Positions 1 to 23,006 of a stretch of DNA of 24,133 bases are shown piece by piece. The stretch is taken from IMG/VR virus record IMGVR_UViG_3300028388_002906, positions 1 through 24,133 of that record, one strand, 5' to 3'. A program made the position numbers and the translations under genes. The DNA is from a virus. The stretch's first letter is position 1, and each line of letters begins with the position of its first letter. The notes beneath the pieces were generated by a model. It was not told the origin of the DNA and made no database searches. It saw only the letters and a list, made by a program, of their open reading frames with translations.

Positions 1-2826
1 CTGGAGAACATTATAGAGCTCTTGGAATGAGGTGTTTGCTCTATTGATAATATCGGTCTCACCTTCAAACAGACCTTCAACACGAGATTGCATGTACTCG
101 TTAGCACCTAGAGTTTCTTCGAGCTGTTCACCTGGAACAATGTAAGAAATAGGTGAACGATAAGTAATACCAGCTAAACGTCCCCAGTAGTTCGAGTCAA
201 GCGCAATGTCATATCCAAGACCATCAAGGATGATCTTAGAATCTCGCTCACACTTGTCAGCATCATATCCTTTGTAACCAAGCCCGCCATCAGCTGTATT
301 TGCTGTGAGATACTCGACCATGTCATCGATAATAAGTTCTTGACTCGCTTCAAGAGTATCGCCAAAGACCGTGTTACCTATAATAGTGGCTGAAGTTGCT
401 TTAGGAGCGAAGAACTCAGTAGTACCTTTTGCTCTCATCGAGATGTCACCGAACTGAGTACCTGAGTTGTTCAGTGTCATTTGTCCGCCATTCAATGCGT
501 AGAATGCGATACGAACGAAGATTGATAGAGAACCGATACCGTTAACACCAGCACCATCCCGTGCTACGTAACCGATACCGTTTTGAGTACGTGGTGTGAA
601 ACCGAAGCAAAGTACATATGTGTAAAGCGAGTCGGGATCGAGTACGCGTCGGTCTGCGAGTACGCACCCGCCTCCACGACCTACTAATCTATTCGGGAAG
701 TCATCAACACCGATGCTTTCAATTACACCAACACCACCAGATTCCGATGTTACTGTATCACCAACCGCGAAACCTTTGTTATTTTTCAGGTTACGAACTC
801 GAATAATACGATTGTTTGTGATGTCTCCAGGCTGTCCTTGCAGAGCGTCTTGAGAATCATCCCAAGATAGATAACCTACAGCACCAGAGCTAAATACGAT
901 CTCGTCGTCAAGTTCCCATGCTCCAGTAAAGCCAGCTTCAAGAGTGAATGTTCTACCTAAATCGGCCAGTGTACCTTTGCTGTTATATGGATTGAGCGGT
1001 GGTTCAATATCAGCACGAACGAAGTTAGAAAGCTGAGTACTGTCTCTTAGATATGGAGAACGGAGTAACTTAGCACCTGGGCGATAAGCAATCGCGAATC
1101 CACCTTCTGGATAATCGAAGTTGTCGATCTTCCAGTTCATATAAGAGAAACCTTGAACATAACAACCGGAACCTACGAGAACCGCGTTGTTGTTTTCATA
1201 TCCAGGAAGGGCTTCAATAACTGTTGCATACTGGCCTGATGTTGACGTTAATGAACAGTCGTCAGGAAGAGCAAGATTACCTTTAGTATAATACGTACCG
1301 GGTCCTACAGAAATATGAACAGCGTTATTAAGTGCGTTACGATCAAAAGATCCTCCGGCCTTTTCTAAGCAAAGCTCAAAAGCTCGCTCAAGTGTTTGTA
1401 CAGGTTGTAGCATAGTACCGGGGTTGTCATCGTTGCCGGATGCTGCGTCAACGTGAACTTTTAATGCCTGTGCAGTGCTCCTTGACACTTCATCAAAGAG
1501 TTGCTTATATGAAATCTGTTCTGTTTCGCCGGTCTTCTCGTTCTTAATTGCGAAGTAACTTTCTTCATCAAGTGGTGGATCGAACTTCTTAGTAAGATCC
1601 ATATCAAAGTCAACAAGATCAGAGTTTCTTACAATACCATTATCAAATGTAGACTTAGTAACATCACCACTGTCGAAAGAAGATCTCGTCTGGCTTAATC
1701 CGTCAGCACTCGAACTTGTAATTGACATATTCTGAGCAACTACATTGTCCATTGTGCCTGTGAACGATGTGTTTGAGATCTCAGAGTTCGTGATTGTGCT
1801 TTGATCAACAGTTGTGTTGGTAAAGATGTTGTTGTTACCAGTACCATCATTGAATTCGGACTGAGTAATTACAATATTGTTTGCAGTACTATCATTGAGT
1901 TCAGAATCTGTAATAACAATATTGTTTGCAGTCCCATCATTGAACTGAGATTGAGTAATTACGACATTATTCGCTGTGCTGTCATTAAGCTCAGAATCTG
2001 TGATAACAACGTTGTTTGCTGTACTATCAGTAATAGAACCGTCAGTGAATGTTGATTCTCGAATATCTAAATCTGTGCCTGTAGAGCTCTCAAGCTGTCC
2101 ATTCTGGAACAGCGAGGATGTCATCGTTACGTTATTTGCAGTCGAATCAAATATCTCTCCGTCAGTAAACGTAGACTGAGTGATGGCTACATTGTTAGCG
2201 GTGCTGTCTACAATGTCAGAATTTGAAATGAGTGACTGATCAATGGTAGAGTTCGTAAGAACGACGTTGTTACCGGTACCATCGTTAAATTCTGAATTAG
2301 TGATTACGACGTTGTTAGCAGTACTGTCGTTGAGCTCAGAGTTTGTAAGAACGACGTTGTTACCGGTAGAGTCGAGAATCTCTCCATCAATAAACTGAGA
2401 ATTTGTAATTACAATATTGTTTGCTGTACCATCATCGAAAGACGAATCAGTGATGGTCATCGTGTTAGCTACAGTAGCGAAGATGTTACCTAGCTGGAAA
2501 GAAGAGTACGAAATGACGATGTTATTAGCATCAGAATTTGTGATTACAGTGTCGTCGATGCTTCCTCGAACGAAGTTTGTATCTTCAATGTTCGAGTTGT
2601 CAATGATAACGTTCTCAAGTCGAGAGTCCGACATGATAACGCCAGAGATTGTTCCCCCGGTGATCGTGATACGATCGAAGATTTCGTACTGGATAGCCTG
2701 TACAAGTTCTTTACGAGTAATGCTACTCGTACCATCGTCACCTTGCACCAGGTTAACTATAACGAATAAGTCTTCCGTTCTAGTATTAGCACCGGTAATC
2801 GGAGGTAATTCTGAAATCTTTGACAT
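1..2826 (-). CDS. Repeat-rich tail fibre/spike protein with pectate-lyase-like module (3' end beyond window)
   Basis: The reading frame opens at ATG 2826 and stays open for 942 codons to the left edge, so the C-terminus is missing. Residues 1-40 look like the virion-attachment segment of a fibre (MSKISELPPI, then a stretch ending ITRKELVQAIQYE). From about residue 105 to 345 it is built of degenerate 15- or 20-residue units of the form [SG]T[AG]NN-[VI]VIT-x-S-x-[FL]-ND, resembling a pentapeptide-type quadrilateral beta-helix. Around residue 455 the segment VHVDAASGNDDNPGT begins what resembles the opening of phage pectate-lyase-fold (right-handed beta-helix) domains. The rest is beta-rich and contains a glycine-rich GDTVTSESGGVGVIESIG loop. 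A consensus late-promoter box and AAGGA ribosome site precede the start. Probable role: peripheral baseplate or side-fibre adhesin, possibly glycan-binding or glycan-degrading. No catalytic residues can be assigned. Confidence 0.85.
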   Translation of the reverse strand, partial: MSKISELPPITGANTRTEDLFVIVNLVQGDDGTSSITRKELVQAIQYEIFDRITITGGTISGVIMSDSRLENVIIDNSNIEDTNFVRGSIDDTVITNSDANNIVISYSSFQLGNIFATVANTMTITDSSFDDGTANNIVITNSQFIDGEILDSTGNNVVLTNSELNDSTANNVVITNSEFNDGTGNNVVLTNSTIDQSLISNSDIVDSTANNVAITQSTFTDGEIFDSTANNVTMTSSLFQNGQLESSTGTDLDIRESTFTDGSITDSTANNVVITDSELNDSTANNVVITQSQFNDGTANNIVITDSELNDSTANNIVITQSEFNDGTGNNNIFTNTTVDQSTITNSEISNTSFTGTMDNVVAQNMSITSSSADGLSQTRSSFDSGDVTKSTFDNGIVRNSDLVDFDMDLTKKFDPPLDEESYFAIKNEKTGETEQISYKQLFDEVSRSTAQALKVHVDAASGNDDNPGTMLQPVQTLERAFELCLEKAGGSFDRNALNNAVHISVGPGTYYTKGNLALPDDCSLTSTSGQYATVIEALPGYENNNAVLVGSGCYVQGFSYMNWKIDNFDYPEGGFAIAYRPGAKLLRSPYLRDSTQLSNFVRADIEPPLNPYNSKGTLADLGRTFTLEAGFTGAWELDDEIVFSSGAVGYLSWDDSQDALQGQPGDITNNRIIRVRNLKNNKGFAVGDTVTSESGGVGVIESIGVDDFPNRLVGRGGGCVLADRRVLDPDSLYTYVLCFGFTPRTQNGIGYVARDGAGVNGIGSLSIFVRIAFYALNGGQMTLNNSGTQFGDISMRAKGTTEFFAPKATSATIIGNTVFGDTLEASQELIIDDMVEYLTANTADGGLGYKGYDADKCERDSKIILDGLGYDIALDSNYWGRLAGITYRSPISYIVPGEQLEETLGANEYMQSRVEGLFEGETDIINRANTSFQELYNVLQ
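1800..2460 (-). repeat. Coding tandem repeats, 45/60-nt period
   Basis: About a dozen degenerate copies of a 15-residue unit, some extended to 20 residues, lie within the fibre gene at roughly residues 122-342. Examples are STANNVVITDSELND and GTANNIVITDSELND. All unit lengths are multiples of five residues, and a hydrophobic or small residue (I, F/L, A) recurs every fifth position, as expected of a pentapeptide-repeat beta-helix. Synonymous codons differ between copies, which suggests old duplication under protein-level selection rather than recent slippage. Confidence 0.8.
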
Positions 2827-9737: not shown

Positions 9738-10289
9738 TTAAAGTTCCAGTACAAACTTGAATTCTTCTCTAGAGAGGTCTGTTCTCGCTAATGGGAAGAA
9801 GTTTTCCATAAAGTACACTTCTCCACTTCTTTGAGTATACGGTGACATTACTACGTTGTCTGCTGCTGGACTATTTATAGTGATTGTTTGGCCGGTCGCA
9901 TTTCTAAATGGTAAAGTAAGATCTAGCGGAGTATCACCATCTCCTGTTGAAGGATTGTTTGGATAAGGACCCAAATACTCAGCAAGATAGAAAGTGTTAG
10001 CACTTAAATCAACTTCGTGCACTACACCAGAAAATATTGTTTCGTTGTTACTGTCTAGCTGTATTAAAACAGTGTTAGCAGATACTCTATCTATATCATC
10101 TGTTGTTACTGCTAAACGGTTATCAAAGACATCAGGAGTGGATCCTGAGAAAGAAGGACCTTTTACAATACCTACACCAGTGTAAGTGTTGGTATCTCCA
10201 ATCTTGGTGTTGTCGTCAGCAGTAATGTATGCATAGAATGCAAAGTGTTTGCATCTATGTTCGATCATCATCCTCGGGATTGAAGTCAA
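9738..10289 (-). pseudogene. 8: C-terminal fragment of split baseplate wedge gp8
   Basis: This frame overlaps the end of the upstream gp8 frame by 35 nt in another phase. Its maximum extent opens at TTG 10289; ATGs at 10271 and 10268 are possible real starts, but only GAGG lies next to them, at poor spacing. From about residue 12 (RCKHFAFYAYITADDNTKIG, then YTGVGIVKGPSF) it reads as the continuation of gp8, and its end (SGEVYFMENFFPLARTDLSR, then EEFKFVLEL) is the classic gp8 C-terminus in T4-like phages. The gp8 family has a Gly-Gly-His-Gly segment just before this region; it is absent here in every frame I checked. That suggests a small out-of-frame deletion rather than a simple one-base slip. 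It could be translated separately as a second chain, or be a sequencing/assembly fault. Confidence 0.7.
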
Positions 10290-11298
10290 ATGCGGGATCT
10301 ATAACCTGTGCTACTGCGTTGCGATAGCCACTTCCTTTTTGAAGAACTGTAATACTAGTAATCCGGCTTTCAGAATTTATAGTCGGTATAGCAACCGCAC
10401 CAGTCCCATCTCCGATAATTTTAACTTCTGGAAAAATCTTAAACTCAGCTGTAGATGTTACTCCAGCGGCTACAGGGTTAGCAGCGCCAGTAATAAGTTC
10501 ACCACCGACACGAATAACAGCGTTACCTGTCCCGGGATTGAACTGATAGAAAGTGATCTTAAATAATCGAGATGTGATACCATCTGGGTTTGTAGTGTAT
10601 ATGTATTGCCCGGTGTAGTAATTAGTAGTAGCACTTAGAGTGGTCGAAGGATCTATAATCATAGTTCCGTTTGTCGAAGGACTACCTACCAAGCTTCCCT
10701 CTTCTTGTACATAACCGAAGTTATCAAGAGGATTTTCTACAACAATATCTGATAACTCGCCACCTTGAACTGGTGTAGGATTTGCAACAAAATCGTCTAC
10801 TAGAGGAATATAACCGATCGCATTATAAGCTTCAAACTCAAGGTCTGAAATTTTGTACATGTGCTTCCAAATGTATCCATCGGCTGTTTCGTAAATTTGA
10901 TTAGGTGTAGTAGCATTAAAATTTGGAGGGCTAGTAACCTTTGCGCCATCGTTGTTGCTCAGGCACTTGTACACTCGGTAGTCGCCGGTGTCGTTGTCAT
11001 TCGGGCCCACGACAGCATAGAAGCGCTTGTCAGTTAAATCAATTTTGTCATCGTATTCTTCGTACACTTGATCTTTCTGCCAAGGATAATACTTGATCAT
11101 GTAATGAATATCGTCTGGAAGAATTCGCTTACCAAAAAGTGTTTTTTCTAAGAATTCATTTTTAGAAAATTGTGAATCTTCTGGATCGAAAGTATCTATC
11201 GCAGAAACAAACAGATAATAGTTCTCGTTCGTCAAAGCATCTTCGACAAACAGTCTATTAAGATCACTTTTAAAGCTGTTACTTAGTATCTCTGCCAT
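10255..11298 (-). CDS. 8: Baseplate wedge subunit gp8, N-terminal part
   Basis: A 347-aa frame with gp8 hallmarks: ILPDDIHYMIKYYPWQKDQV, YRVYKCLSNNDGA, and ETADGYIWKHMYKIS, the conserved heart of T4 gp8. In T4, gp8 is a dimer in each baseplate wedge, bound to gp7 and gp10. Here the frame stops early (VIDPAFDFNPEDDDRT, then stop), and the family's C-terminal region is found in an overlapping frame just downstream. Together the two pieces would make about 510 residues, in keeping with the longer gp8 of marine T4-like phages and well above T4's 334. A near-consensus late box lies about 33 nt before the start. Whether a functional gp8 forms from two chains is unknown. Confidence 0.85.
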   Translation of the reverse strand: MAEILSNSFKSDLNRLFVEDALTNENYYLFVSAIDTFDPEDSQFSKNEFLEKTLFGKRILPDDIHYMIKYYPWQKDQVYEEYDDKIDLTDKRFYAVVGPNDNDTGDYRVYKCLSNNDGAKVTSPPNFNATTPNQIYETADGYIWKHMYKISDLEFEAYNAIGYIPLVDDFVANPTPVQGGELSDIVVENPLDNFGYVQEEGSLVGSPSTNGTMIIDPSTTLSATTNYYTGQYIYTTNPDGITSRLFKITFYQFNPGTGNAVIRVGGELITGAANPVAAGVTSTAEFKIFPEVKIIGDGTGAVAIPTINSESRITSITVLQKGSGYRNAVAQVIDPAFDFNPEDDDRT

Positions 11299-11346: not shown

Positions 11347-13215
11347 TTAGGCTGCTACTACTATCTTTCTTCGAGGATAAGCTTGTCCTGAAGATGGCCT
11401 ACGGCCTTGTGCAGGACCTCTAACCGAATTAATGTATTTACCAGTGCCTAGTCGAATAGAGTATGGCAAATATATTCTGTCTGTTGGTGTACCGAAAAGA
11501 TCACTTAAATCGCTTCCACCGTTTTGCGAATCACCTTCACTGATGCGAAACACATTAAAAGAGCTATACAATCTTGTAGAAGCTTTATTTCCGGGAGAGC
11601 TTATACTTGAAAAATCTTCAAGACCTTCACTTTCAAGCACCTGCTTTGAGTTGTTTGTAATGATTTCTTTTAATTGCGCGATGGTAGGATAAACACCTCT
11701 TTTTACAAAGAAATCACATATCATTATACTCGCTGTCCCTGCTGCAACAGGCCCGGCACAAGAGGTTCCACTAAAGTATCCCCACGTTCCATCTAGTTTA
11801 GATGTTGTAGGATAAGAAGTCCACGTGTATGCGCCTGTTGCCGCAACATCAACCATAGGACCTCTATTACTATAATCATCTAATAAAGGATTAATAGTAC
11901 TATGTTGACAAGCAGCTATTGTTATTTGGTTTGCGCCACCACCCTTGAAAAGACGGCAGGGCCTTGCGAATACTGACGTAGGAGATGAGGGAGTAGTGTA
12001 AGTATTGAATACATATCTTCCATCTCCATCAAGAGATATATTCACGGCACTTACAGAGTTGTCTATGTAAACTTTGTTCTCTTTTCGAGGATCATTTTCG
12101 CCAACACCAACGGCAGAGTTATTTCCTGCACTATCAAAATGATATATTCCGCCGGTATTATTGTAACTATTCATGATTGTATCTAATGTTGTATAGCGAC
12201 TTCCTAAATTCCAGGCAATCATCCACTTGTCAGTGCTATCTGCAGGATCATTAATGACACGCGGAACCATTAAGTTATCAGTGAATGGCGTAAAGTCTGT
12301 ACCCCAGCCGCCGCCTGGTCTATTGATTGTAGTTAGATTTCCTGCAGTATCGTATACTTCCAGTTTATTAATATATTCAACCGGGGCGGCACCAGTCAAG
12401 TCAACTCCAGTAAAACCCCAAGCTCCAGTTACAATTGTGGCATTTCGAACTCCTGTTGCTGGATTTACCGGTTTATTTTGGTGAAAATTAAGAACACCAT
12501 TATAAGCTTCCGGGACGCCGTCCGCAAGATAAACCACTCTTAAGCTAGAGACTTTACTCCATCCACAATATGTACCACCGGCAGCACTCAATACTCCAAT
12601 AGCATGAGCACTAAAAAAAGTTGTATTAGCAGTCGCTTGATTTTGGCTAGCAAGACCAGACTCATAAGTCGTCCAATCAGTCTTAACAAATCTAGGATTA
12701 TTGTTAGCATCTAAAAAATCCGGATGTGTGTACGCATAAGAATCATATGTTGATAATGGTGTTCCGGCTTCTATCGCAACTATATCAACATATTCGCCGG
12801 CATAGTTTTGGTTTATAGTTGCAGAAACCTCAGCATCTTCCCCATCACCAGTAAAAAAACCAACGGGTCCAGAATTTGCTGTAATGTTTACTCCGCCATG
12901 AAACCAAAAATTAGTACCGGAATAATCAGCTCCGTTTGCTCCACTAGGTGCACTTCTTGTTTCGAGTGTAGTATTTCGTGTATACTCTGGTGTAACGGGA
13001 TAAGTAGTTTCAACTACAGGTAATTCTAATTCACAATCAATCACTAAATCACTTGACAATAGTACTGATACTTCTTCATCTGTAAGACGCATTGATATAA
13101 TACTGTCTAGCAAATTAAGGTTGCTAGCTACTTCCATCCCTGCAGCTTCATTTGCTAAGAACGCAGGTTCATCTGTTCCTGGTTGAAGAACAACTGTGTA
13201 TTTACGCTTTTCCAT
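11347..13215 (-). CDS. Virion-associated subtilisin-like (S8) serine protease
   Basis: A 622-aa protein. Residues ~5-62 (KYTVVLQPGT, then LTDEEVSVLLSSDLVIDCEL) resemble an inhibitor-I9 propeptide. The S8 domain follows: the Asp-box is VAIEAG, placing Glu149 where the catalytic Asp is normally found, with HPDF 164-167 in the usual spot after it. His204 lies in FSAHAIGVLS (the HGTHVAG position). The oxyanion Asn365 lies in SAGN, and nucleophile Ser485 in GTSCAGPVAAG. A segment around 446-460 (DDYSNRGPMVDVAATG) matches the usual FSN-x-GP-xVD-AAPG motif. There is no secretion signal, fitting a virion protein. The C-terminal tail is Arg/Gly/Pro-rich and basic (QGRRPSSGQAYPRRK). The gene sits between the cupredoxin fibre (3-nt gap) and gp8, so a baseplate or fibre location is inferred, perhaps cleaving host surface proteins or maturing virion proteins. 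The acid substitution leaves activity uncertain. Confidence 0.87.
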   Translation of the reverse strand: MEKRKYTVVLQPGTDEPAFLANEAAGMEVASNLNLLDSIISMRLTDEEVSVLLSSDLVIDCELELPVVETTYPVTPEYTRNTTLETRSAPSGANGADYSGTNFWFHGGVNITANSGPVGFFTGDGEDAEVSATINQNYAGEYVDIVAIEAGTPLSTYDSYAYTHPDFLDANNNPRFVKTDWTTYESGLASQNQATANTTFFSAHAIGVLSAAGGTYCGWSKVSSLRVVYLADGVPEAYNGVLNFHQNKPVNPATGVRNATIVTGAWGFTGVDLTGAAPVEYINKLEVYDTAGNLTTINRPGGGWGTDFTPFTDNLMVPRVINDPADSTDKWMIAWNLGSRYTTLDTIMNSYNNTGGIYHFDSAGNNSAVGVGENDPRKENKVYIDNSVSAVNISLDGDGRYVFNTYTTPSSPTSVFARPCRLFKGGGANQITIAACQHSTINPLLDDYSNRGPMVDVAATGAYTWTSYPTTSKLDGTWGYFSGTSCAGPVAAGTASIMICDFFVKRGVYPTIAQLKEIITNNSKQVLESEGLEDFSSISSPGNKASTRLYSSFNVFRISEGDSQNGGSDLSDLFGTPTDRIYLPYSIRLGTGKYINSVRGPAQGRRPSSGQAYPRRKIVVAA

Positions 13216-13218
13216 ATA

Positions 13219-14874
13219 TTATGTCTCTAAAGTAAGAGCGGTAAGAGTAACTGTAACTGTTCCGGTCGATCCTGAATTATTCTTTACTGCTGCTGGAATA
13301 GTAGTTTCACTATTATCAACGTATCCGTAAACAGCAGGTGTAACTTTAAATGTCGTGTTGGCTGAGGTAGCAATAAACTCTGCAATGATTCCTGCACCTT
13401 CTGGAGGATCATCACCCTGATTTCGACTAGCATCTGCTGTTCTTGATGCTGTATCAGAATATATTCTTACCCAGGATTCTTTATCAACAGTTACTGAGTA
13501 AAGTGCATAAGATTTTCCTAGATCAGCATATGCAACGTTTCCTGATGCGCCATTTGCTAAACTCGCTGTTGTTTCGGATTCAGTATTTCTAGAAAGAGAA
13601 CCTCCACTGCTGCCGGCCGCAGCTTCTAAAACTATGTTACCATTCATAGCTCCGTGAGATGTGCATTGATATTTGTAAGTTCCTGAAATGGCAGCTGGAA
13701 CTTTCCAATAAAGAACGCCTGATGTTTTACTTTGTGCATTAGAGCCTGTCGACACTGTTCCATTTGGAGCTACGTGTACAAGGCCTGTATTATAATTAGA
13801 CCCTTCAGGTTGTTGTATTGCAAATGGATGGCTTCCAAGAGCTGTTAGGTCGAAAGCAATAGTCATACCAGCTTTAGCATAAACAGTTGGATTATCTGTT
13901 GTTCCATACTGGTCGAAACGAAAAGCTGATGTTCCATTAGGTGTTGCTACTAAGGTTGTTGAAGCTTGTACAGCTATATCATGAACATCGATATCTGCTG
14001 CATTGATTTCGGTAAGTGCAGCAAAAGTAGACGATCCCCCACCGGCGGTAACCCAGTCATAGTCAGAGCCAGTCCAACTTAGTACTTCACCTGCAGAAGC
14101 TGATCCAGTATTTAAATGTGTATTGACATCACTGTCAGAATAACCTGCGCTTACAGTAGCAAATTCAATTCCGTCACCACCACTATTAATTCTTAAAATT
14201 TGCCCGGCGGATCCAAATGATGCAGGTGTATCAGATAAGCTTATGAACGTACCAGTACCAGCAGTAGCATCTGCAGCATTAACCCAAGCGGAACCGTTCC
14301 ACTTTAATACTTCACCGTTACTTGGACTTGAAACCGTAACGTCACTAAGATCATCTATAGCAGAAGCACCTCCGCCGCTCGCAGCAATAGTGATAGAGTC
14401 GTTTGTACTATTAGTTGTAAGAGTAATATTTGAACCGGCTACAAAAGTAAGCGTATCAGTCGTGCCATCTGCCACAATGTTGTTTTGGCCAGAAACTGCT
14501 ATTGTACCAAATGTGTTAGCAGACGAACCTCCACCTCCACCTATATCAGTAAACTTAGCAATCTTAATCCAATCATTGGAATCTGAGTAATAAAGCGATC
14601 CTGTGTCTTGAGCGAATCCAATACAACCTTTATACGTAGATTCGTTCAAAGCAAGTAAAGCAGCTTCTGATGGATAAAAGAAAGATACTTTGTGGGCTTT
14701 GCCGGTGAGATCAAACTCGCCAGAACCGTTGAAAAGGTTCGTTGCGTTACTAGAATTTCCTAGCGCAAAATACAACTCATTGAAGTTGTCGTTTGTTTTA
14801 TCGAAAGCATTACGGAGAGGATCACCATTTCCGTCATTAGCGGATGCTCCGATGTTGATTATCTGCTTGGCCAT
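13219..14874 (-). CDS. Baseplate/fibre protein with a type-1 copper (cupredoxin) domain
   Basis: A 551-aa modular virion protein. Residues 1-40 (IINIGASANDGNGDPLRNAF, then DKTNDNFNELYFALG) are a recurrent N-terminal module of marine T4-like structural proteins, probably a virion anchor. Residues ~60-110 form a small beta module with a Trp. About 170-280 hold fibre-type segments (LSDVTVSSPSNGEVLKWNGS and related repeats). Residues ~285-415 form a cupredoxin fold: His349 in GSHPFAIQ, then Cys404, His407 and Met410 in YQCTSHGAMNG. The C-x2-H-x2-M spacing is that of amicyanin, so a full type-1 copper ligand set is present. The C-terminal ~125 residues are a beta domain (SRTADASRNQGDDPPEGAGI) of a kind I recall from marine phage tail proteins. 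It follows gp7 and precedes the subtilase. Electron transfer, copper binding or a purely structural role are all possible. Confidence 0.85.
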   Translation of the reverse strand: MAKQIINIGASANDGNGDPLRNAFDKTNDNFNELYFALGNSSNATNLFNGSGEFDLTGKAHKVSFFYPSEAALLALNESTYKGCIGFAQDTGSLYYSDSNDWIKIAKFTDIGGGGGSSANTFGTIAVSGQNNIVADGTTDTLTFVAGSNITLTTNSTNDSITIAASGGGASAIDDLSDVTVSSPSNGEVLKWNGSAWVNAADATAGTGTFISLSDTPASFGSAGQILRINSGGDGIEFATVSAGYSDSDVNTHLNTGSASAGEVLSWTGSDYDWVTAGGGSSTFAALTEINAADIDVHDIAVQASTTLVATPNGTSAFRFDQYGTTDNPTVYAKAGMTIAFDLTALGSHPFAIQQPEGSNYNTGLVHVAPNGTVSTGSNAQSKTSGVLYWKVPAAISGTYKYQCTSHGAMNGNIVLEAAAGSSGGSLSRNTESETTASLANGASGNVAYADLGKSYALYSVTVDKESWVRIYSDTASRTADASRNQGDDPPEGAGIIAEFIATSANTTFKVTPAVYGYVDNSETTIPAAVKNNSGSTGTVTVTLTALTLET

Positions 14875-17474: not shown

Positions 17475-19334
17475 TTATAACGTTCCGATAGTTGACGATG
17501 AAGTTGAAGTACCGACTTTAGTTGTTGACTCTCTTACATCAACAAACACATCATCATCTCGAATAATAAACACACGACCCTGTGGCGCTTTTACATTACT
17601 TCCTTTGAGACGCGCCTTAATCTTAATAGCGCTTCCGTTATATTCTTCAACGATAAAGTTTGATAACTTGATCTCGCCTGTAGCGTAGTTAACTGTCCCT
17701 GCAGAAGGGTTTACTACCTGAGGATTCGTAGCGTCATCAGTAACAGTCATCATATTACCGATGCCGTCGTCCTGAAGATAAACACATACACCATCAACAT
17801 CAAAAGGAGTACTGGTAACTGCTGGCTTGTAATCAGAAAAGCCGTTAGTCGCTCTGAAAGGATATGGCTTCACCAACTCAGATTCGAATCTAAATGAAGG
17901 GGCTGCTCGAACATTTAAAACAGGAGAGTACTCAATATAAGGCGTGAGTTCGATTGAACTACTCTCAATAGCGGTGTCTAGATTATCGAGTGCGCTAGTT
18001 AGTTTCGATCTATAAAGCGTAGTGTTGAAATCTTCTAGATTATTGTTTGAGTATGTTTGTACTGCTGCTCGAATTAATGATTCAAGTTCGGCTACTGTTT
18101 TCTCGGTGTACTTATTAGTATACAGAGAGCTGATATCGAGTTCGCTATAAATGAATTTTGTTTGTACAAACACAGGCTCGATACCAAGAGGACTCTTTTC
18201 TGAAAGATAAGTGATAAATGCGTTTGAAAGTGTTGAGCTAATCAACTGGGTGTTATCATCTAAGAAAACACTAATAGCGACTTTACCAAACTGAGGTGGA
18301 TCAAGATCCTCACCTCCATAAGCAGATACTGCCTTAATCTCTGGAAATCTTTGCTTCAGTAGAATCTCGTAGTCGCTGGTTGTTACAGCTCGCTCTTGAA
18401 TTTGTAAAGCTTTTGGAGCGAAATAACGAATACTTTCGATTGATTCTCTTTCCTGACCGCCAGATGCTGCTGAGATCGTTTGTACATCAATGGTTGCATT
18501 CTCTACGAAGCTAGCTGAAAAACTGTTAGCCCCATTTGCTTCCGCGCCTGACGTGACGCGGTACCTCACGCGGACGTCTTCAAATTCTTCTGGCTGTAAA
18601 CCAAATTCGTTCTTACCGAAGTAGATCGAATATCGATCATCGAAGTATGGCTCAATGTAGAACACTTTATCAGTAGGCTTAACACCAAAGATTGTGTTAG
18701 CTCGAGCAAAAATGTTCTGATCTTCTGTTGCTTCCGCATCTACGAACACGACAATTGAATCAGTGTCTACTTCGTTGTTAGTAAGATAGACTCTTAGAAT
18801 ACCGTCTGCATCGACGATAAATCCTTCACGTTGGAAGCTAGATAGCATTTGTCCTTCGTAAATAACAACATTATCAGCGACAAACTCAATGTCTCCTGTT
18901 ACGGCATTCAGTGTTTTTCTCGCTACATACACTTCGTCTGTTACGAAGTTGAATGTCTCACCCTGATAGTTCGAGCTGAAGTTGCTGTAACGAGGAATCG
19001 TAATCGTTGAGCCTTGAAAATCGGGAGAGTCAATAACTAATCTTACAGTTGCTCGAGCTGACTTACGAGATCTTGGTAGATAGTTTAATTCTTTAGCATG
19101 GGAAACGACAGAGTTCTTGATGACGGCCGAGTCAAGGAACATCTCGTTGATTGCCATATTTGTGTAGAAGTTGTTTTGAAACGTGTTGAATGCAAGAACA
19201 TCGAGCAACGCACTTAAGTTACTTCCTTCAAAATTGTAATCTTTAAACTGAGCTTGCGTTTGCAAGTATTGTCTTAGCTGAGTTTTGATCGAATCAAAAT
19301 CAAGCTCAGTGATTGGTGTCTTAGGATTGGCCAT
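17475..19334 (-). CDS. 6: Baseplate wedge subunit gp6
   Basis: A 619-aa gp6 homologue (T4: 660 aa). The N-terminus is diagnostic: SALLDVLAFNTFQNNFYTNM, NEMFLDSAVIKNSVVSHAKE and LNYLPRSRKSARATVRL, the family core of baseplate J/gp6 proteins. Further in, ESIRYFAPKALQIQERAVTT followed by SDYEILLKQRFPEI is the conserved dimerisation-region motif shared with baseplate J proteins of P2-like tails. In T4 two gp6 chains per wedge form the iris-like ring around the hub that opens during sheath contraction, with gp25 and gp53. The gene begins 1 nt after the gp25 stop and ends 15 nt before the gp7-like gene, so the three wedge-core genes are almost certainly co-translated. No anomaly seen. Confidence 0.95.
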   Translation of the reverse strand: MANPKTPITELDFDSIKTQLRQYLQTQAQFKDYNFEGSNLSALLDVLAFNTFQNNFYTNMAINEMFLDSAVIKNSVVSHAKELNYLPRSRKSARATVRLVIDSPDFQGSTITIPRYSNFSSNYQGETFNFVTDEVYVARKTLNAVTGDIEFVADNVVIYEGQMLSSFQREGFIVDADGILRVYLTNNEVDTDSIVVFVDAEATEDQNIFARANTIFGVKPTDKVFYIEPYFDDRYSIYFGKNEFGLQPEEFEDVRVRYRVTSGAEANGANSFSASFVENATIDVQTISAASGGQERESIESIRYFAPKALQIQERAVTTSDYEILLKQRFPEIKAVSAYGGEDLDPPQFGKVAISVFLDDNTQLISSTLSNAFITYLSEKSPLGIEPVFVQTKFIYSELDISSLYTNKYTEKTVAELESLIRAAVQTYSNNNLEDFNTTLYRSKLTSALDNLDTAIESSSIELTPYIEYSPVLNVRAAPSFRFESELVKPYPFRATNGFSDYKPAVTSTPFDVDGVCVYLQDDGIGNMMTVTDDATNPQVVNPSAGTVNYATGEIKLSNFIVEEYNGSAIKIKARLKGSNVKAPQGRVFIIRDDDVFVDVRESTTKVGTSTSSSTIGTL

Positions 19335-19335
19335 C

Positions 19336-19752
19336 TTATCTTATCCTTTCTAGTATGACATCTAGTTCGATTGGTTGATTAGCGTTCTTAATGTAAAAAG
19401 TTACTCTGATGCTTACTGCATTATCATCAATTGTAGATGAAGCTAAAACGTCGATCAACTCAGCTCGTGGTTCGTAGTTGTTTATCGTAGTTTTAACTTT
19501 TTGTTCTATTAGCTTAAGAGTACCAGGCGTAATGTTTTCAAACAGCAGAGCTCGAATGCCAGCGCCTAGAAAAGGTTGCATCGGTCTCTCGCCCGGATCG
19601 GTTAACAACAGATTTTTGATTGAGTCCTTAACAGCGTCTTCATCTTTCAATATAGTAATATCTTGAGAAATAGGAGACAAGCGCAGATCTTTCTTAAAGT
19701 CTGTATAAAGAGTCGGCCTTTTCGTTAATGGCGTTTTTAGTGTTATCGTCAT
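19336..19752 (-). CDS. 25: Baseplate wedge subunit gp25
   Basis: A 138-aa protein close to T4 gp25 (132 aa) in length and motifs. LLLTDPGERPMQPFLGAGIR is the family signature, and EPR at residues 94-96 (NNYEPRAELIDV) is the conserved triad that builds the core layer contacting gp6. In contractile systems gp25-type proteins join the wedge to the first sheath ring and help initiate sheath polymerisation; the old name 'gp25-like lysozyme' is a misnomer. Its ATG overlaps the stop of the M15-domain gene by four bases (ATGA, 19749-19752), indicating translational coupling to the upstream hub gene. gp6 follows after 1 nt. Confidence 0.96.
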   Translation of the reverse strand: MTITLKTPLTKRPTLYTDFKKDLRLSPISQDITILKDEDAVKDSIKNLLLTDPGERPMQPFLGAGIRALLFENITPGTLKLIEQKVKTTINNYEPRAELIDVLASSTIDDNAVSIRVTFYIKNANQPIELDVILERIR

Positions 19753-21293
19753 CTCGGTATTTCTCGTATGTCTAGATGAATTTCGTCGCCTTTCACGACG
19801 ACATATTTAAATCCATTCTTTAAAGCAGACTCTACAAAATCGTCTGTGTCGAACTCGAGTGGATCGACTTTTATATCTATAACTAGTCCACTTAAGTGGC
19901 TGTTCTCGGGATCGCCTTCGACTGAATCGTTGTAATCTTTACTATACCATCCCCGTGTGATAGTATACTTTCCGCCTATCTCTGCTTGGACTCTCATTAA
20001 GTATACTTTAACGTCGAGATCAATACGAGTATAACCAGTAATACCTAAGTCTTTAACCCAATCACCTTCAACCGCAACTCGATTATCTTCGCCTTTAAAC
20101 ACCTTTCCACAAACAGGAAGTTCCTGATATTCTTCAGCAGTAATAGGTTTTACAGCTTTCAGTTCCTCACCTGTTGGTGTAATGGGCGTACCCGATTCCC
20201 CGTTCCACAGAGCTCTTAATCTATTTATGGATTCTTGTCGTCTTTCAGGAGAATATCTTATAGCACTATTTCGAATAGCAGTCGAGGTATTAATATTCGA
20301 GATAGCAGCCATACGCTTTACTATGCGTTGGTATCTAAATCCATAATCATCAAGAGGCTTCTTAATATCTCTAATAAGCAATTCAATATTAGTCGCAAGA
20401 GCACAGAATCTAAACACCATGTAGCGTATCTGATCTAAGCTCGGTCTTTCGAAAAGACTCATCGCATAGTTGATCAGGCCTCTTACACGATCTTTAATTG
20501 TTTTCTTGTTATCTTCTGTAAAGAAAGCACACATTTGTTCTTTAGTAGTCATGATAGCTTTCACACTGGCCAAAGTACCACCTTTCAGCTCACCAATAAT
20601 ACCATTAATGTTGAAGTTCGCAATCGCATCTTCGACTTCTTGCATAACCTGACCAACAATTTCAGTGATAGCTTCTTCAATTTCAGTTTTTAAGTACTCA
20701 ATCAGCGTTTGATCTTTGAGCTCCTCAAATCCATCGAAGTTTTGAATCTTGTTGACTAGACTAAGTACGTCTCCAATAATACCTTCGACTACACCAATCA
20801 AATCATAGAAAGCTTCGATCTGTTGAAATATGTTTTGAAGAGTTTTACAGAAGCCTCCGAGCAAGCTGTCAGCGAATGAATCGACGTAATAGCTATCGAT
20901 CTCTCTCAGAAGCTTCAGATAGTCCGTCTGGTCAATAATACCCTGAGGAGTATAGTTATATTGGTCTATGAAGTCGGCCACTTCTAGTACAGTTATATTC
21001 CCTCTGCTCCACCGACGCTCGGCTTCAGGAAAATCACTCAGCCTATCACTAATTAAATCTCGAAATAAACTGTTCAAATAGTTAGTTGATTCGTCTAAAG
21101 TGTCTCCAAAACGATTTCGAGCTCTCACTAAAGGGTTAGTCTCAGCGTTTTCTCTTATGTTTTCTGCTAGCTCATCAGTGAATACAGCTATTTGGTTTAG
21201 TGTGTATTCGCCTTGAAAGTTAATATTAGGACCGGGTGTAATCGCTCTTGTGTTTTGAGATACTTGATCTCTGTAGTCTATACAAGTAGCCAT
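19749..21293 (-). CDS. Hub-associated helical protein with C-terminal M15 zinc peptidase domain
   Basis: A 514-aa protein. About residues 1-390 are mostly helical, with long hydrophobic heptads (for example LIGVVEGIIGDVLSLVNKIQ and later EIVGQVMQEVEDAIANF), and match no family I can name. Residues ~425-514 look like Peptidase_M15: Zn ligands His466 and Asp473 in SHLSGLVID (H-x6-D) and His506 in DEIHLDIR, with Asp503 three residues before His506 in the catalytic-acid position used by phage L-alanyl-D-glutamate peptidases. The usual SGYR segment is changed to RGWYS, so the customary Arg is a Tyr. By family this would cut D-Ala-D-Ala or L-Ala-D-Glu bonds in peptidoglycan. It starts 3 nt after gp5 and overlaps gp25 by 4 nt, implying a tail-tip or baseplate location. 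It may supply the wall-degrading activity missing from gp5. Confidence 0.82.
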   Translation of the reverse strand: MATCIDYRDQVSQNTRAITPGPNINFQGEYTLNQIAVFTDELAENIRENAETNPLVRARNRFGDTLDESTNYLNSLFRDLISDRLSDFPEAERRWSRGNITVLEVADFIDQYNYTPQGIIDQTDYLKLLREIDSYYVDSFADSLLGGFCKTLQNIFQQIEAFYDLIGVVEGIIGDVLSLVNKIQNFDGFEELKDQTLIEYLKTEIEEAITEIVGQVMQEVEDAIANFNINGIIGELKGGTLASVKAIMTTKEQMCAFFTEDNKKTIKDRVRGLINYAMSLFERPSLDQIRYMVFRFCALATNIELLIRDIKKPLDDYGFRYQRIVKRMAAISNINTSTAIRNSAIRYSPERRQESINRLRALWNGESGTPITPTGEELKAVKPITAEEYQELPVCGKVFKGEDNRVAVEGDWVKDLGITGYTRIDLDVKVYLMRVQAEIGGKYTITRGWYSKDYNDSVEGDPENSHLSGLVIDIKVDPLEFDTDDFVESALKNGFKYVVVKGDEIHLDIREIPR

Positions 21294-21296
21294 TTC

Positions 21297-23006
21297 TTAA
21301 TCCTCCAATGACGTGTTAAATATACCAACAGAATATCCACGAGGATAGTATGATTGGTTGAAGCACATCATACTCTTTGAAGGTGGTTCTGGCATTTGAG
21401 CTCGTGTGATTCCATACCCACCGAAATCTAATGCAGGTATTATGCTACCAATAAAGCTAAATGGTGAAGTTAATATACTTGTATAGAACTCCGGACCGTT
21501 ACCTACTGGGTAAGCCCAACCAGAAGCTTTACCGAATATAGGTGGAGTTGGGTCACTAATAGCAGCAACAGTTAAATCCGGTATTGTAGGAATAGAACCA
21601 GCCGTAAGTGGTAGTCTATACGTACCACTCTCATTGTAGCTTACAGGTCCTTTCGGTAAAGGAGCTCCCAGTGTAGTAAAGTCACCCGTTGCAGCTAATA
21701 CATCAGTAGCAAGAACAAGAGGAGAGTTAACAACAGAACTAGCAGTAATTGCACCTGCATTAAGTGCGACTGCATTCCATATACCGTTAAAGCTACCACT
21801 AACTGCATTTACGTTCATTCCACCTTGAGGACTGACTGTTAAATTGAAGCCAGCTTGGAGAGGTGTACCTATTGTTCCAGTAACAAACTGAGTAATGCCT
21901 GGTGCTGGTGGAACCAAACATGTAGCCGTCATCACGATATTGCTTGCAGTTAAATGGAAATCTAAAGGAGTACTAAACTTAAATCCTTTTGTCGAATAAA
22001 CCGCGTAATCAAGTAGAGCATTGTGCTTAATGTTCTGAGATACGACATTAATCTGCTTCTCGGCTTCCATTTGAATTTGTTCTTTACCGAATAGAGTGAG
22101 GGCGTCAATTGAGGACTCGATTCTTGTTGTTGAACCTCTTGCCATCAAGCTATCGCCAGCATTCAAGAACAAGTTACCGCCAGCTCCGATCTCGGTTGTA
22201 CCGTGAACTAACAGTTTATAATCGCCTTCGATCTCTTCTGTTTTATTTCCTCTAACATAAACATGAGCGTTACCGTTGATTGTAACAACAGAAGCTTCTG
22301 AAGATTCGTGTTTGGTTCCGATATTAATTTCATAACGATCCCCTTCCGCTCGCTCAGTAACAGTACCCATAGCGTCAATCTGAATGAATGCACCAGACTT
22401 GTGGTGAATCATAATACGCTCAGCGTTTGGTGTGTCGTCAAGCTCAATAGTATGTCGAGCAGTTTCAATTACTCGATTGTAAGGATACCTGGCTGAATAA
22501 GCAGAAGGAGGCTGAGACCAAGTCTCTTCCATATTTGCGATCTTTTGATCTTGAACAGCATTGATGCTAACATCTGCGTGGTATGTTTCGTCAATGCGCT
22601 CGCCTCTCACTAGCTTCGAAAGTGGAGGCTCTCCAAAATCTTCTGGTGTGTATCCTTTAGCGAGAATATCTCCGTCTTGAAGAGGAACACAAGAATAACC
22701 ATCACTGTTTGGATCGACTTCATCCACAAACTGGCTTGGGATTACACCTAATATAAGAGGATGTTGCGCTTCATCTCCATCAATAAACATACCGAACACG
22801 AAAGAACCCATCCGAGGAAGCGGAGCATTTGGATCGTACCCACCTTGAACACAAAGCGCCCAAGGAAGATCGGTTGTAGGTACTTCGCCATGAGTCCCGT
22901 GAATACCAAAGGCACGGACTTTGACTCGCCCCTGAAGTTGTTTGTCGTCAATATCTTCTACGATTCCGATGAAGAACATCGGTTGATTAATTCCTAAACC
23001 TCTCAT
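21297..23006 (-). CDS. 5: Central spike/hub protein gp5-like, without lysozyme domain
   Basis: A 569-aa spike protein. Residues ~10-130 form the gp5/VgrG-type OB-fold (FFIGIVEDIDDKQLQGRVKV, then RAFGIHGTH, DLPWALCVQGGY and PLPRMGSFVFGMFIDGDEAQ, then PLILGVIP). Where T4 gp5 has a ~165-residue lysozyme domain, this protein has only a short linker (YTPEDFGEPPLSKLVRGERI). A repetitive beta-helix follows (~190-330: IELDDTPNAERIMIHHKSGA, then FIQIDAMGTVTE, and later INGNAHVYVRGNKTEEIEGD), as in the gp5C/VgrG needle. The ~220 residues after it are glycine/proline/threonine-rich and beta-like. By family it trimerises to form the membrane-piercing needle under the gp27 hub. It lies 2 nt after the gp27-like gene and 3 nt before the M15 gene. 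Confidence 0.9.
   Translation of the reverse strand: MRGLGINQPMFFIGIVEDIDDKQLQGRVKVRAFGIHGTHGEVPTTDLPWALCVQGGYDPNAPLPRMGSFVFGMFIDGDEAQHPLILGVIPSQFVDEVDPNSDGYSCVPLQDGDILAKGYTPEDFGEPPLSKLVRGERIDETYHADVSINAVQDQKIANMEETWSQPPSAYSARYPYNRVIETARHTIELDDTPNAERIMIHHKSGAFIQIDAMGTVTERAEGDRYEINIGTKHESSEASVVTINGNAHVYVRGNKTEEIEGDYKLLVHGTTEIGAGGNLFLNAGDSLMARGSTTRIESSIDALTLFGKEQIQMEAEKQINVVSQNIKHNALLDYAVYSTKGFKFSTPLDFHLTASNIVMTATCLVPPAPGITQFVTGTIGTPLQAGFNLTVSPQGGMNVNAVSGSFNGIWNAVALNAGAITASSVVNSPLVLATDVLAATGDFTTLGAPLPKGPVSYNESGTYRLPLTAGSIPTIPDLTVAAISDPTPPIFGKASGWAYPVGNGPEFYTSILTSPFSFIGSIIPALDFGGYGITRAQMPEPPSKSMMCFNQSYYPRGYSVGIFNTSLED

Follow-up and report, generated by a model that had tools for sequence, protein, structure and literature searches.

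A subtilase-like protein in the baseplate gene cluster of a marine T4-like phage, with glutamate at the position of the catalytic aspartate

The window analysed here is the whole stretch of 24,133 nucleotides at positions 1 to 24,133 of the IMG/VR virus record IMGVR_UViG_3300028388_002906. Its minus strand carries a cluster of baseplate and tail genes, which runs from a gp5-like hub (21297-23006) through a gp6-like wedge gene (17475-19334) and more wedge genes to a tail pin, a subtilase, a wedge subunit and tail-fibre genes. The subtilase gene and its two direct neighbours are as follows.

13219..14874, minus strand: gp9/gp10-like tail-pin protein, directly upstream of the subtilase (Pfam T4_gp9_10_N, E 1.2e-5, and PHROG)
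11347..13215, minus strand: subtilase-like protein P0001, 622 aa (ORF translation, Pfam, predicted structure)
10255..11298, minus strand: baseplate wedge subunit, directly downstream of the subtilase (phrog_438, E 4.7e-37)

The baseplate-operon setting proposed in the initial annotation is borne out by Pfam and PHROG matches of the neighbouring genes, both in the window and in homologous loci. The homologues described below have either Glu or Asp at the catalytic acid position and are referred to as Glu type and Asp type. With at least 900 bases of flank required, fragments included and the window's own copy excluded, the nearest upstream ORF resembling one of the window is the tail-pin-like gene in 44/52 Glu-type and 50/54 Asp-type rows, and the nearest such downstream ORF is the wedge gene in 40/62 and 34/47 rows, respectively. 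A tail-pin gene also lies just ahead of the subtilase in the named phages S-H38 and S-CREM1. An indirect pointer to a virion role comes from S-SCSM1, whose record labels the Asp-type, S8-bearing gp228 as 'virion protein'; 45 proteins were detected by mass spectrometry of purified S-SCSM1 virions, according to an excerpt of the report on this phage (PMC9602691).

Several other features of the cluster deserve mention in their own right. The C-terminal part of the 19749-21293 product (minus strand) has a weak Peptidase_M15_3 match (E 0.015, below the cut-off) and displays SxHxxG and HxD-like motifs, and the adjoining gp5-like hub is without a called lysozyme domain; this product may be what attacks the cell wall in this phage's tail. 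The product of the ORF at 1-2826 (minus strand) resembles a tail fibre and contains an extended array of pentapeptide-like repeats (Pfam Pentapeptide_4, E 1.8e-12). Downstream of the subtilase, the wedge gene 10255-11298 resembles phrog_438 over the N-terminal part alone (1-258 of 478). It is overlapped in another frame by a TTG-started ORF, 9738-10289 (minus strand), the C-terminal end of which gives a weak PF25691 match (E 0.013, below the cut-off). These two ORFs may stem from a single wedge gene that has been split, or from a frameshift in the assembled sequence.

The main features of the subtilase-like protein are listed below.

13027..13215, minus strand: putative I9-like propeptide domain, residues 1-63 (fold of the model and alignment with pro-Tk-subtilisin; Pfam silent)
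12982..13011, minus strand: low-confidence linker, residues 69-78 (pLDDT <50)
12784..12786, minus strand: Asp144, conserved in 61/61 Glu-type and 50/50 Asp-type rows
12769..12771, minus strand: Glu149, codon GAA, at the catalytic Asp position (motif and profile alignments)
12715..12726, minus strand: HPDF box, residues 164-167 (H164 in 61/61 Glu-type rows)
12604..12606, minus strand: His204, predicted catalytic base, within HAIGVLS (conservation; first turn of helix 203-213 in the model)
12121..12123, minus strand: Asn365, predicted oxyanion-hole residue, within SAGNN (conservation)
11761..11763, minus strand: Ser485, predicted nucleophile, within GTSCAGP (conservation; first turn of helix 484-506 in the model)
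11350..11439, minus strand: C-terminal tail, residues 593-622, consensus RPxSGxxYPRRKI (conserved, mostly disordered)

The plus-strand translation of 11347..13215 is riddled with stops, and the 622-aa ORF lies on the minus strand. The strand was absent from the initial annotation, the residue numbers of which (E149, H204, N365 and S485) are exact in this translation, and the HPDF box is indeed found after the Asp box, as it had stated. The context of E149 is VDIVAIEAG. Pfam Peptidase_S8 (PF00082) is matched by residues 339-523 alone, with an E-value of 1e-7 and a score of 32 bits, above the cut-off of 21.8. The protein thus passes the curated sequence cut-off of family S8, and it has the subtilisin fold and the His, Asn and Ser residues of this family. 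Since Glu149 occupies the place of the catalytic Asp, it is filed here as an S8 variant, that is, an S8-fold homologue and not a canonical Asp-His-Ser subtilase. The C-terminal tail has pLDDT values mostly below 50, yet P614 and R615 are present in 61/61 Glu-type rows. The RPxSGxxYPRRKI-type motif is confined to the subtilase family, with 35 matches among 374 distinct ORF tails of phage loci, which makes this conserved disordered tail a candidate docking peptide.

An AlphaFold2 model built from 60 sequences has a mean pLDDT of 87.1 and a pTM of 0.87, with block means of 92-95 at the four catalytic sites. Its best fold matches in the PDB are subtilases, with Z around 30 and rmsd of 2.4-2.7 over about 266 residues. 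Foldseek ranks unprocessed pro-subtilisin E first, followed by C. difficile CspC/CspA. The best matches among viral models are the 'proximal tail fiber' of S-CAM1 and the S8 proteins of ACG-2014e, ACG-2014h and S-SCSM1. A PDB search with the single sequence returned no match, and the family profile matched 188 distinct PDB sequences. N-terminal residues 4-63 fold as beta-alpha-beta-beta-alpha-beta, and pro-Tk-subtilisin aligns with model residues 2..591 (Z 27.9, 352-355 residues). Because this alignment starts at residue 2, the N-terminal domain is predicted by its fold to be a propeptide. The I9-like propeptide noticed earlier is thus a candidate I9 domain, with the modelled fold and the alignment to pro-Tk-subtilisin in its favour and no match to the Pfam I9 family. 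The processing site probably lies near linker residues 69-78.

The correspondence of Glu149 to the catalytic Asp was examined through profile alignments. Direct comparison of the Glu-type phage proteins with cellular subtilases covered the C-terminal half only, and the acid box was thus linked to cellular subtilases via the Asp-type phage proteins. The Glu-type profile (24 rows) aligns with the Asp-type phage profile (18 rows) over 526 columns (probability 100%, E 8.4e-49), and E149 is paired there with the Asp of VDVVIVD. An alignment of the Asp-type phage profile to that of 23 cellular subtilases (probability 99.9%, E 1.2e-36) in turn places the phage Asp opposite the cellular catalytic Asp. 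E149 is the last residue of strand 143-149 in the model. The same placement is known in subtilisin, where the acid lies at a strand end and His and Ser at helix starts. This two-step alignment, the strand-end position and the closely related L048/L062 pair described below together support E149 as the catalytic-Asp equivalent.

The distribution of this residue has been followed in a family set drawn from IMG/VR and from annotated phages (15 regions), where the family HMM matched 167 ORFs, 134 of them distinct. The P-HM2 region (L163) did not pass this HMM, and AG-345-L05, an annotated-phage match, stayed outside the set. All but one of the distinct homologues (133 of 134) were aligned with MAFFT; the exception, L165 from S-TIM54, was omitted for its length (2145 aa) and is of the Asp type, with VDIVVVDNG, HGTPVAS and GTSAASP boxes. 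The cellular-subtilase HMM failed to align 75/133 phage rows at the acid position, the others giving 57 Asp and 1 Glu, and the family tallies are therefore drawn from the MAFFT alignment. Its 133 rows comprise 61 with E-H-N-S, 50 with D-H-N-S and 22 with a residue missing, the latter being 20 ORFs that end at a contig or locus edge and the two halves of the frame-broken L074. In L074 (about 341-1994), the frame of a Glu-type subtilase is interrupted close to the acid box, which leaves two ORFs and reflects either decay or a sequencing error.

Alignment of the homologues at the acid position, a check suggested with the initial annotation, thus gives 61 Glu and 50 Asp among 111 complete phage members. 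His, Asn and Ser are retained in every one of these, and no residue besides Glu and Asp occurs at the acid position. Part of this invariance comes from selection, since rows with all four residues were taken; the excluded ones are edge-cut or L074 halves. Variability of Ser485 among homologues, which had been named as an argument against activity, was not observed, Ser being present in 111/111 complete members. The 61 Glu rows do not count as independent cases: they form 37 clusters at 90% identity and 14 at 50%, with a median pairwise identity of 35% and a lowest value of 23%. At the sequence level, the presence of Glu at position 149 in 61/61 complete Glu-type members with this median identity is beyond chance. 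In 16/17 pairs dN is lower than dS; dS is saturated in the 17th pair, in which pS exceeds pN.

For comparison, a cellular control set was collected through the canonical serine-motif pattern, which yielded 118 loci and 124 ORFs, 10 of them too short and 114 kept. A first genome scan for cellular relatives had matched 187 stretches, none of which was confirmed. A regex-only control on the 124 ORFs (Asp box in 80, no His motif in 25, no box in 17, only other matches in 2) was replaced by an HMM control. In the latter, the acid column could be read in 111/114 cellular subtilases and was Asp in each of them, Glu being absent, and the other 3 failed to align; this control leans towards canonical enzymes, because the HMM seeds carry Asp and the proteins were picked by their canonical Ser motif, so that the background rate of Glu is bounded and not settled. 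The count of 0/111 points to a rare and possibly costly exchange, which weighs against a working Ser-His-Glu triad.

The phylogeny of the phage family indicates that the acid has changed more than once. On a quick tree of 111 rows, from which alignment positions 149-151 had been removed, the Glu/Asp distribution needs two changes, and two are needed again on a more careful tree of 39 of these rows. In the latter, L068 (Asp), L048 (Asp) and L062 (Glu) group together (support 98/91) as the sister of all other Glu rows, and a single clade of the 22 Glu rows is rejected by the AU test (p 7.6e-7). These trees are unrooted; with Asp as the ancestral state, as in cellular subtilases, the most economical history has Glu arising twice. 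The L048 (Asp) and L062 (Glu) proteins are 83% identical over 807 residues (dN 0.107, dS 0.273); the acid is swapped and His, Asn and Ser are the same. Neither state comes from a single contig, since L048-L051 are four contigs with the acid codon GAC and L062/L063 two contigs with GAA. Such a repeated conservative exchange is what a function-preserving replacement would predict.

The surroundings of the other catalytic residues also differ between the two types. Position 3 after the catalytic His is His in 46/50 Asp-type and Gly in 59/61 Glu-type rows, and position 6 is Gly in 46/50 and Ser in 61/61, respectively. The residue following Ser is Met in 46/50 Asp-type rows, whereas Cys (51), Asn (7) or Ala (3) is found in the 61 Glu-type rows. 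The Asp-type L048 and L068 already have Glu-like states at these flanking sites. Our conjecture is that changes near the catalytic His and Ser made room for Glu. Ser-His-Glu subtilases might then have arisen at least twice in marine T4-like phages from Ser-His-Asp ancestors, enabled by earlier active-site changes (His to Gly/Ala/Ser at +3 of the catalytic His and Met to Cys/Asn/Ala/Ser after Ser, as present in the Asp-type L048 and L068). They would represent a working third catalytic arrangement on the subtilisin fold, in an enzyme built into a tail. We advance this scenario tentatively, as one that could well turn out either way.

For the window protein itself, the reading that we consider probable, with some reserve, is that of a baseplate or tail subtilase of a marine T4-like phage working through a Ser485-His204-Glu149 triad; its activity, the Glu149-His204 contact, its virion location and its substrate are inferred. 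Glu149 would orient and charge His204, as Asp32 does in subtilisin, and Asn365 would be the oxyanion residue. The protein would be synthesised as a zymogen and probably undergo self-cleavage within the linker that follows the propeptide, and the mature enzyme would ride in the virion and act on host-surface or tail proteins. The initial annotation had left three options: the use of Glu, its substitution by Asp144, or a dead protease kept as a binding module. The first is now the best supported, with 61 complete members in which His, Asn and Ser are intact and an Asp/Glu interchange within the 83%-identical pair. That a whole lineage of related viruses shares the swap and retains all other catalytic residues suggests an atypical active site that still works, more than an enzyme that has lost its activity.

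The strongest rival retains a Ser-His-Glu site for a single turnover, by which the protein would cut its own propeptide once and then have a structural or binding role in the baseplate. PCSK9 is known to behave in this way in another setting. The residues at the substrate-binding strand are relevant here. At the position aligned with subtilisin Ser125, Ala is found in 41/61 and Glu in 15/61 Glu-type rows, and Gln occurs in 14/61 at the position aligned with Gly127 (subtilisin numbering). This strand has thus drifted in Glu-type members, which counts against full activity. The drift, together with the retention of the catalytic residues and the propeptide fold and with the location of the gene in a structural cluster, is what a single-turnover protein might display. 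The occurrence of PCSK9 among the fold matches reflects the shared fold only, and we regard this possibility as unlikely, if still a serious one.

It is less probable still that the protein is a dead protease kept as a binding scaffold, its His, Asn and Ser persisting for structural or historical reasons. The canonical acid is indeed gone, the substrate strand is altered, and CspC/CspA are among the best Foldseek matches, CspC being titled a pseudoprotease in the PDB. However, His, Asn and Ser are lost in 0/111 complete members, even at 23% identity among Glu-type rows, the acid turns to Glu alone and never to Asn, Gly or Ala, and the Asp/Glu swap has recurred on the tree; this disfavours the dead binding module of the initial annotation. 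Lastly, a different acid standing in for Asp32 is highly improbable: Asp144, the candidate put forward initially, is present in 61/61 Glu-type rows but equally in 50/50 Asp-type rows, so that it does not compensate for E149, and lies five residues before it on the same strand, where it should face the opposite way, roughly 16 Å off. The D446 position is acidic in 61/61 Glu-type rows (Asp 58, Glu 3) and rarely so in the Asp type (Glu 2/51, the 51 including one gapped L074 half), which would speak for such an acid; it belongs to a DDYSNRGP segment that aligns with the cellular AxFSN/SxG segment and is not adjacent to the acid box in sequence.

A separate finding concerns the tail-pin gene, which contains the following domain.

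13618-14028, minus strand: cupredoxin-like domain, residues 283-419 of the tail pin (domain model, fold matches, motif)

The domain model has a pLDDT of 89.8 and a Z of 12.6 to a copper nitrite reductase domain, and its first Foldseek matches are rusticyanin and amicyanin. It displays His, Cys, His and Met at type-1 copper spacing, in alignment rows chosen by that motif; we take this pattern to be that of type-1 copper ligands. The copper-site motif is found in 45 distinct segments of phage loci, 12 of which were flagged within S8 ORFs by a simple test. Among the Glu-type subtilases it lies between His and Asn in 12/61 and after Ser in 2 more; among the Asp-type ones it lies after Ser in 5/50 and is found nowhere in 45/50. 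Insertion sites vary: the domain is located between His and Asn in L001, L014, L019, L034, L041 and L103, after Ser in L048, L062, L090 and L110, and between the acid and His in L007 (S-CAM1). Read by eye, the S-CAM1 domain has its Cys-His-Met half ahead of the one with the first His, an order that resembles a circular permutation. One would not expect a copper domain at the tip of a phage tail, and a literature search with few subscription journals in its scope brought up no paper describing cupredoxin domains there.

T4-like cyanophages were already known to carry S8 domains: the P-SSM2 gene is annotated with PF00082, and an S8 peptidase is mentioned for P-HM1 and P-HM2 in the portion of the source available (PMC3037559). 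The acid of the subtilisin triad is regarded as fixed in a 2024 article, as its accessible part has it (PMC11593635). Our literature search, in which subscription journals were thinly covered, found no report of a Glu-type subtilase, and the novelty is thus provisional. If the proposed triad is real, a natural and repeated Asp-to-Glu swap, including one within an 83%-identical pair, would offer a direct test of the role of this acid and of the neighbours that permit its replacement. It would also point to a tail-tip protease in ocean phages, which could bear on the passage of such phages through the cell surface. S-CAM1, the sole named Glu-type isolate found, infects Synechococcus.

With canonical members of family S8 such as proteinase K, aqualysin I and pro-Tk-subtilisin, the phage protein shares the fold, the acid-His-Asn-Ser order and the GTS serine motif, along with a putative I9-like propeptide domain. 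It differs from them by its location in a baseplate gene cluster and its large insertions and, like the Glu type in general, by Glu in place of Asp and by the replacement of the His at +3 of the catalytic His and of the Met after Ser. The S8 proteins of cyanophages (S-CAM1 'proximal tail fiber', S-H38, S-WAM2, P-SSM2 T4-GC 292 and S-SCSM1) are homologous, with the conserved C-terminal YPR tail and, in those inspected, the same tail-gene context; S-CAM1 is of the Glu type and the other named phages inspected are of the Asp type. An S8 pseudoprotease is defined by the loss of its catalytic His or Ser. The CspC/CspA pseudoproteases and PCSK9 have the S8 fold in common with the phage family, which keeps His, Asn and Ser throughout; a CspC-like loss of the catalytic His or Ser was seen in 0/111 complete members. 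Acetylcholinesterase and aspartyl dipeptidase have folds unrelated to that of subtilisin. A Glu likewise acts as the acid of the Ser-His-acid triad in acetylcholinesterase, according to an excerpt (PMC9853848), and a Ser-His-Glu triad is given for aspartyl dipeptidase in the title of a paper. In the text fragments where 'Ser-His-Glu' was met beside subtilisin, it designates a peptide stretch, this aspartyl dipeptidase title, or acetylcholinesterase (PMC9853848) and an esterase. Closer in fold are the sedolisins (S53, Ser-Glu-Asp), which belong to the subtilisin-fold superfamily and also have an active-site Glu, as described in the part of the article at hand (PMC11593635). The sedolisin Glu replaces His as the base, whereas the window protein keeps His204 and has its Glu at the Asp position, and it therefore falls outside S53.
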